64,000 nt of DNA from Sediminibacillus massiliensis (lineage in GTDB: Bacteria; Bacillota; Bacilli; Bacillales; Amphibacillaceae): assembly GCF_900156915.1 (NCBI RefSeq), contig NZ_LT732535.1:827480-891479 (forward strand), written 5' to 3'. Shown here piece by piece: positions 21,395-46,326 of the stretch (position 1 is the first letter of the stretch; each line of letters starts with the position of its first letter). The notes under the pieces were generated by a model that saw nothing but the letters and a program-made list of their open reading frames with translations, was not told the origin of the DNA and ran no database searches. Both the position numbers and the translations under genes were made by a program.

Positions 21395-22457
<1,063 letters not shown>

Positions 22458-22558
22458 TGCAGGCACTCCCTCTTCCTATTTATGCTCGCAATTAATCCTA
22501 CCATAAAACATCCTATTCAGGAAATAATGACAATATTTTTCAAAATATGAAACGTTAT

Positions 22559-22587
22559 GTATATTATTTCTGTCTTCGTCCATAATA
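22559..22587 (+). promoter_or_regulatory. SigG/SigF-type promoter of csfG
   Basis: GTATA (22559-22563), 17 bases, then CATAATA (22581-22587). This matches the forespore SigG consensus (GHATR -35, CATNNTA -10) at every defined position; SigF recognises related sites. Predicted start near 22594. Position directly before the structured RNA supports it. Confidence 0.72.
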
Positions 22588-22593
22588 ATCTAG

Positions 22594-22748
22594 TGAAGCG
22601 GCTGTTTATCAGCAGCTGCTTCAGAACACGGAGAAGACTTACGTTTCCCCATAAGTTCTTCCTCCGGTTTCTCCTCTCCCTTTGCCTTTTTGGCTACCGC
22701 TGGTAACCAAAAAGGGCCTGCAGATTTTTATCTGCAGGCTTTTTTTTA
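22594..22748 (+). ncRNA. csfG: Sporulation small RNA CsfG
   Basis: About 155 bases between ylbH (rsmD) and ylbG, the position of the conserved sporulation RNA CsfG in endospore formers. Three hairpins are visible: GAAGCGGCTG/CAGCAGCTGCTTC at about 22594-22622; CCTTTTTGGCTACC/GGTAACCAAAAAGG at about 22685-22715; and a terminator GCCTGCAGA/TCTGCAGGC (22716-22739) with eight T. Between the first two is an unpaired C/U-rich stretch with TCCCCAT, TTCCTCC and TCTCCTCTCCC, which is complementary to ribosome-binding sites. No plausible plus-strand reading frame is present. Identification is by synteny, promoter type and architecture; a covariance-model search was not possible. Confidence 0.78.
22716..22748 (+). 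terminator. Terminator of csfG
   Basis: Nine-base perfect stem GCCTGCAGA/TCTGCAGGC, 6-base loop, then a T run. Confidence 0.92.
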
Positions 22749-23030
22749 TAAAGTTGTTTTCTATTGTTTTTTCAGTCATACCGTACTTGCGAACATTTCA
22801 GTGCAGAAAATTGGGTATTTTCAGGGGGAAGACCCCGCCTTAACGAAAGTCCTTATTCATCCAAGATATGAACAACTCTAAATCAGATTATCACTGGTGC
22901 GCATTTTGATATAAAAAGCATCTGAACTTATGGGGAGAACCTTTACATAAGATATTATTCTGTCCTCCTTATATTTTAATTTGATCTCTTCCATGCTAAA
23001 GTAAGCAATACGGGAAGGAGAGTAAATACA

Positions 23031-23411
23031 ATGAAAAAATTTATTCAATTGGGTGAAGGCCTTTCAGATTTCTATGAACTTTTGGAGCTGGCAAATCAAA
23101 TGCCTCAAAGAGTCAATAGTTTTGTATCACTGCCTACAGAAAAAAACGGCTATCATGTAACTTCGCTGGTATTAATCATGCAACCGGCCAGACAAGGTGA
23201 ATTCCAACCCATTTATGTTTGTCTTGAAGGAATACCTGATCCGAATCACAAACCGAATCAACGGTTTGATTTGTTCAAAGAAACAGCGGATCGGTTAAAC
23301 AAGCGGATTATCGAGCTTCAGATAAAGCCATCTACTGATTTTTATGAAACAGAATTGTACTTTCAGTATGTAATGGGCATCTTTCAAATGAACCGTTTAC
23401 TGAAAATATAA
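23031..23411 (+). CDS. Conserved Bacillaceae protein, DUF7147-like
   Basis: 126-residue soluble protein beginning KKFIQLGEGLSDFYEL. It has no signal peptide, membrane segment or recognisable catalytic motif. Related proteins at this position in Bacillaceae have sometimes been labelled methylthioribose kinase, but it is far too short to be that kinase; DUF7147 is my tentative family name from memory. It has a strong GGAAGGAGAG ribosome site. It lies between csfG and ylbG and shares a bidirectional terminator with ylbG. The 280 bases before it, back to the csfG terminator, hold nothing else that I can identify. Confidence 0.72.
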   Translation: MKKFIQLGEGLSDFYELLELANQMPQRVNSFVSLPTEKNGYHVTSLVLIMQPARQGEFQPIYVCLEGIPDPNHKPNQRFDLFKETADRLNKRIIELQIKPSTDFYETELYFQYVMGIFQMNRLLKI

Positions 23412-23455: not shown

Positions 23456-23734
23456 CTATATTCCCATTTTATAATCATATTCTTTTGCCTTATCCATTTT
23501 GGCATTCTCGAATTCTGTTTTTACAGAAGGCTTATGAGAGAATTCTACCTTCGTAATATAAGGCAGTTCGTTTAATCGTGCGGCTTTTTCTTCCAATTCT
23601 TCTTGATTAACATATAATACAGCGTATTTAAGCTCCTTTGACACATAAATCAAGTGGCCAAAGCGCTTAATCTGTTTAACGTTTTTCATATGGTGAAACC
23701 ATACGATTAACCCTTGGCGTTTTGTTCTCATCAT
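23456..23734 (-). CDS. ylbG: YlbG family protein (UPF0298/DUF2129)
   Basis: 92-residue cytoplasmic protein of unknown function. The opening RQGLIVWFHHMKNVKQIKRFG, followed by LIYVSKELKYAVLYVN, is typical of YlbG. Flanked by csfG on one side and ylbF on the other as in B. subtilis, which also anchors the csfG call. Confidence 0.9.
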   Translation of the reverse strand: MMRTKRQGLIVWFHHMKNVKQIKRFGHLIYVSKELKYAVLYVNQEELEEKAARLNELPYITKVEFSHKPSVKTEFENAKMDKAKEYDYKMGI

Positions 23735-46108: not shown

Positions 46109-46291
46109 AAAAAAACTGCCTGATTAAATTTCAGGCAGTTTTTTCTTCTTATTCTTTTCCACAAGTCGGACATTTTCCATAAAGCGTAGATACTTTCTCA
46201 TCCTCATAATGATCAATGATACACTGACAATCCTGACAAACGATCGTACCCATTAAACGTCCAACCCCTTTAAATTAGTAATTTTGTATTC
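46109..46291 (-). ncRNA. sr1: SR1-like dual-function regulatory RNA
   Basis: Predicted minus-strand transcript from about 46291 to the terminator AACTGCCTGA/TCAGGCAGTT (46114-46140). Length about 180 bases, close to the roughly 205 of B. subtilis SR1. It contains the SR1P reading frame, a TTGAAA-N17-TATAAT promoter and a cre box. B. subtilis SR1 pairs with ahrC mRNA and encodes SR1P. The base-pairing segments could not be checked here, because ahrC is outside the window. Antisense overlap with speA is nil; the terminator is shared. Confidence 0.78.
46149..46253 (-). CDS. sr1P: GapA-binding peptide SR1P
   Basis: 34-residue peptide MGTIVCQDCQCIIDHYEDEK followed by a strand (VSTLYG) and a second cysteine pair (CPTC). 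The first nine residues and the acidic YEDEKV stretch match SR1P, the peptide that binds glyceraldehyde-3-phosphate dehydrogenase GapA and promotes its contact with RNase J1. An AAAGGGG site lies upstream at 11 bases. Cysteine spacing (CxxCxC and CxxC) suggests metal binding. Confidence 0.85.
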   Translation of the reverse strand: MGTIVCQDCQCIIDHYEDEKVSTLYGKCPTCGKE

Positions 46292-46326
46292 GTTTTCATT
46301 ATAATATCATAATTAGCGATTTTCAA
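46284..46326 (-). promoter_or_regulatory. SR1 promoter with catabolite-responsive element
   Basis: Minus strand: TTGAAA (46326-46321), 17 bases, TATAAT (46303-46298), then ATGAAAACGAATACAA (46299-46284), which agrees with the CcpA cre consensus WTGNNARCGNWWWCAW at every position and covers the predicted start. In B. subtilis SR1 is repressed mainly by CcpN and weakly by CcpA; no CcpN site was sought beyond this. Confidence 0.8.

Follow-up and report, generated by a model that had tools for sequence, protein, structure and literature searches.

A csfG orthologue in Sediminibacillus massiliensis: strand, forespore promoter and conserved C-rich segments

The csfG locus and its forespore promoter

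The DNA analysed here is a 64,000-nucleotide window of the Sediminibacillus massiliensis genome (contig NZ_LT732535.1), in which a non-coding unit lies beside rsmD (ylbH), on the opposite strand (Table 1). An earlier note on this DNA had placed csfG between rsmD and ylbG. Profile matches confirm both flanking genes, and the RNA does lie in the interval between them; ylbG is not, however, the immediate right-hand neighbour, as one additional open reading frame precedes it. This 126-aa gene gave no NCBIfam match in the profile search. Close by on the same strand as csfG we also observed ylbJ, a gene for a sporulation membrane protein (TIGR02871, 20125-21339).

Table 1. Features of the csfG locus (positions within the window).
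Feature	Position	Strand	Basis or remark
rsmD (ylbH), left neighbour	21885..22466	-	TIGR00095, 182.9 bits against a cut-off of 117.5
Sigma-G-type forespore promoter, GTATA-N17-CATAATA	22559..22587	+	Exact match; conserved across genera
CsfG RNA, ~155 nt, non-coding	22594..22747	+	Fold z -8.3; conserved in 39 of 41 related genera; alignment A1
SL1, 5' hairpin, 13 bp	22594..22623	+	Fold; compensatory pairs; outside the Rfam model
RF00516 'ylbH leader' match, reverse complement of CsfG	22626..22749	-	105.6 bits, E 1.4e-21
SL2 hairpin, C-rich loop UUUCCCCA at 22644-22651	22629..22666	+	Pairs of the Rfam model
CU-rich unpaired linker GUUUCUCCUCUCCCUUUGCC, candidate seed	22667..22686	+	Column identity 0.94
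SL3 hairpin, variable in sequence and length	22685..22715	+	Fold
Intrinsic terminator, 10-bp stem and U8	22716..22747	+	Sequence
126-aa gene, conserved, uncharacterised, between csfG and ylbG	23031..23411	+	Open reading frame; similar one in a subset of relatives
ylbG, right neighbour	23456..23734	-	NF002777, 121.7 bits against a cut-off of 115

The 5' end of the RNA is inferred to lie 6-8 nt past the -10 element and its 3' end was set at the U-run. Folding of positions 22594-22748 gave a free energy of -69.6 kcal/mol (z = -8.3), a stability reached by none of 200 shuffled sequences. Where the earlier note had described two clear stems, the fold contains four hairpins with the terminator included. 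The terminator itself was correctly recognised: its stem (22716-22739) runs directly into eight T residues (22740-22747). An automated terminator scan flagged a terminator-like site on the minus strand only, but the stem and T-run of the plus strand are plain from the sequence.

The description of a non-coding unit of some 155 bases likewise stands, as no conserved open reading frame was found inside the RNA across the 39 sequences compared. Frames of at least 20 aa that start within the RNA occur in nine of the 39, and could be taken to suggest that it encodes a small peptide. Most of the sequences lack such a frame, however, and neither its start, its phase nor its ribosome-binding site is shared among those that have one; conservation acts at the level of bases and tracks the loops, leaving a peptide-coding role highly improbable.

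Upstream of the RNA, GTATA (22559-22563) and CATAATA (22581-22587), separated by a 17-nt spacer, match the sigma-G-type promoter consensus at all defined positions. The sigma-F consensus carries in addition a GG ahead of the -10 element, where the window has GT. The joint SigG/SigF promoter proposed earlier thus fits the sigma-G-type consensus and lacks this part of the sigma-F one. GG is an auxiliary trait that does not define CsfG by itself; it is present in six of 39 loci, and the loci without it are otherwise alike. The csfG promoter is the single exact match to GYATA-N17-CATANTA within the window. Across the 4.35-Mb genome GTATA-N17-CATANTA occurs three times, against four occurrences of the reversed control pattern. 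The motif alone is therefore weak evidence, being near chance genome-wide, and the weight rests on the promoter's place and conservation. At the same place upstream of the RNA, at least 11 of the 12 positions are present in 31 of 39 genera, a score reached by 0.7% of shuffled upstream stretches; all defined positions are present in 18 genera and a degenerate version in two. The two genera L032 and L036 retain the RNA behind a strongly degenerate forespore promoter (GAATA, without CATANTA).

Strand and identity of the element

The earlier note had advised a search with an Rfam CsfG model. Our search of the window returned no family of that name. It did return a family that covers the element, RF00516, at more than twice its gathering score of 50, but as the 'ylbH leader' and on the minus strand. 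The only other Rfam family above threshold was the small RNA SR1 (RF02376, 61.1 bits; 46109-46300, minus strand), with an intact 34-aa open reading frame, MGTIVCQDCQCIIDHYEDEKVSTLYGKCPTCGKE, at 46253-46149 that resembles the SR1P peptide; in Bacillus subtilis SR1 acts on sporulation too.

The RF00516 match raises the question of whether the element is instead a cis-acting leader of rsmD, transcribed from the minus strand. The element does lie upstream of rsmD, and a stable fold is likewise obtained for its minus strand (z -8.2). To compare the strands we used alignment A1, which spans 39 genera and in which paired columns were chosen without favouring either strand. A G-U pair of one strand reads as A-C on the other, and paired columns read on the plus strand hold 70 G-U cells and 20 A-C cells (p = 1e-7, a value that treats cells as independent, which phylogeny means they are not). 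Of the 8 nt that follow the terminator stem on its 3' side, at least six are U in 38 of the 39 loci on the plus strand and in five on the minus strand. A consensus fold restricted to Watson-Crick pairs retained too few helices to inform the strand question. The conserved promoter also points along the plus strand, opposite to rsmD. RF00516 itself opens with A-runs and then a hairpin, as a terminator does when read in reverse complement. In B. subtilis, northern blots detected RNA from the CsfG strand only, which was identified as CsfG, and attention was drawn to the misassigned strand of the 'ylbH leader' as early as 2013 (PMC3574147). The error persists in the Rfam copy used here.

The distribution of the RNA bears on the same question. 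Of 41 related genera, 39 have it, and the remaining two are exactly those that lack sigF/sigG above curated cut-offs. Among 151 genomes of the class (sigG called at E of at most 1e-100), 102 carry the RNA and all 102 of these have sigG; 11 have sigG and no RNA, and none of the 38 genomes without sigG carries the RNA, with class-wide negatives derived from tallies where unlisted. In both comparisons the RNA is thus restricted to endospore formers. A leader of an rRNA methyltransferase gene has no reason to track sigG in this way, and together with the wobble pairs, the U-run, the promoter and the northern blots this makes the leader reading scarcely credible.

Six of the 11 genomes with sigG and no RNA belong to one family (f23), in which sigG is divergent. 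As an observation in its own right, the f23 genomes G066, G100, G115, G140, G161 and G182 are apparent sporulators without an RF00516 match; CsfG may have been lost there or have diverged too far.

The element matches CsfG in locus, promoter type and strand, in being non-coding and in its terminator, and the RNA tracks sigG; we regard it as nearly certain that this is a true csfG orthologue, complete in its parts, as the earlier note had proposed. It is the csfG of a Bacillaceae-type genome and an ordinary additional orthologue of a known small RNA, one that spore-forming Bacilli produce in the developing spore. The 39-genus comparison adds an independent test of the strand and a map of the constrained bases. 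Rfam still lists CsfG, in reverse complement, as a cis-regulatory leader, and annotating genomes with RF00516 would place a false leader on rsmD.

Conserved bases and a possible mode of action

Few small RNAs of spore formers are conserved as well as CsfG, and this conservation is unevenly distributed. Mean pairwise column identity across the 39 genera is 0.94 in both the SL2 loop and the linker, 0.85 in the SL2 stem, 0.74 in the terminator stem, 0.50 in the SL1 stem and 0.23 in SL3. The linker core, UUCUCCUCUCCC, is invariant in all 39 genera. SL1 varies in sequence while compensatory changes preserve its pairing, and the sequences of this 5' hairpin and of SL3 are lineage-specific. Fold, alignment A1 and column identity agree on C-rich unpaired regions, and the higher identity there than elsewhere points to two such segments, the SL2 loop and the linker, as above all the sequence-specific parts of the RNA. 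In total about 40 nt, the SL2 stem included, are near-invariant across 17 families.

These observations suggest a working model. In the forespore, RNA polymerase with sigma-G, perhaps with sigma-F earlier, would transcribe csfG, and transcription would stop at the intrinsic terminator to release an untranslated RNA. SL1, SL3 and the terminator would serve as interchangeable scaffolding, and the C/U-rich unpaired loop and linker as the working parts, with the loop and the linker segment GUUUCUCCUCUCCC as candidate mRNA-pairing segments. Most likely these would pair with forespore mRNAs at their G-rich Shine-Dalgarno regions and, if the sign of regulation is as we infer, block translation, as RoxS and FsrA do with C-rich regions of their own. 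The highest conservation falls in C-rich unpaired segments, as expected of an RNA that base-pairs with G-rich ribosome-binding sites, and on this basis CsfG probably acts by pairing with mRNA; we hold the csfG identity and this action, taken together, to be likewise probable.

Despite this, complement searches of the S. massiliensis genome and of 41 genomes found no conserved CsfG target, and none was known in the literature consulted (PMC9147052, PMC8216469); disruption of csfG in B. subtilis reportedly causes no obvious sporulation defect (PMC9147052). Exact complements of a 10-nt stretch of the linker ahead of ATG codons in the 41 genomes precede unrelated genes, save one orthologous pair in two genera. 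With up to three mismatches, near-complements of linker or loop in the S. massiliensis genome are unique and mostly within genes, so that no rRNA or other multi-copy partner appears there.

Two individual candidates were set aside. One of two genes in this genome with the 10-nt linker complement at the ribosome-binding site is mntP, for which strong pairing is predicted in several relatives; it was dropped, having been picked after the fact and performing no better than another gene family from the same loci. The second is a perfect 13-nt complement of the SL2 loop and 3' arm, GAACTTATGGGGA (22926-22938, plus strand), upstream of the 126-aa gene. It is absent from the other 38 loci and from eight further relatives, and we rate it as a probable chance match because it is found in this genome only.

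One feature does not sit easily with the pairing model. The roughly 40 near-invariant nucleotides, with the SL2 stem among them, exceed what a single mRNA seed needs. CsfG might instead act mainly through a protein or another RNA, for instance through Hfq, a ribosomal factor or as an RNA sponge. The want of a conserved mRNA target in our searches would fit such a role, as would the co-purification of CsfG with Hfq in B. subtilis, although loss of Hfq lowers the CsfG level only modestly (PMC3574147). The most invariant parts are, moreover, unpaired and C-rich, like the regions through which RoxS and FsrA pair (PMC8216469, PMC4409812), and we consider action through such a partner possible but rather unlikely. 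A narrower version, in which CsfG serves one highly conserved forespore partner (protein or RNA) instead of a handful of mRNAs, and in this genome might use the perfect 13-nt complement to bind the 126-aa gene's leader as well, would account for the near-invariant bases across 17 families; we hold it to be more doubtful still. Pairing with mRNA is the reading that we prefer.

Comparison with known systems

The closest known relative is CsfG (S547) of B. subtilis, reportedly described by Marchais et al. in 2011, a paper to which PMC3574147 and PMC8216469 refer. Compared by description, the two share the ylbG–ylbH (rsmD) locus and a strand opposite to rsmD, together with a forespore-type promoter, C-rich segments and a terminator. 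They differ in the additional 126-aa gene that here stands between csfG and ylbG, and in the lineage-specific sequences of the 5' hairpin and SL3. The RF00516 'ylbH leader' is the same element modelled from the complementary strand; Rfam classes it as a cis-regulatory leader, and its model leaves out the 5' hairpin. C-rich regions are common to CsfG, RoxS and FsrA (PMC8216469; PMC4409812). In RoxS/RsaE and FsrA, too, these regions are unpaired, and those of RoxS pair with target mRNAs; transcriptional control (ResDE and Fur, respectively) and structure are different. The likeness to RoxS and FsrA is accordingly one of mode of action, not of family membership, and it is in this respect that they offer the model for how the conserved loop and linker of CsfG may work.
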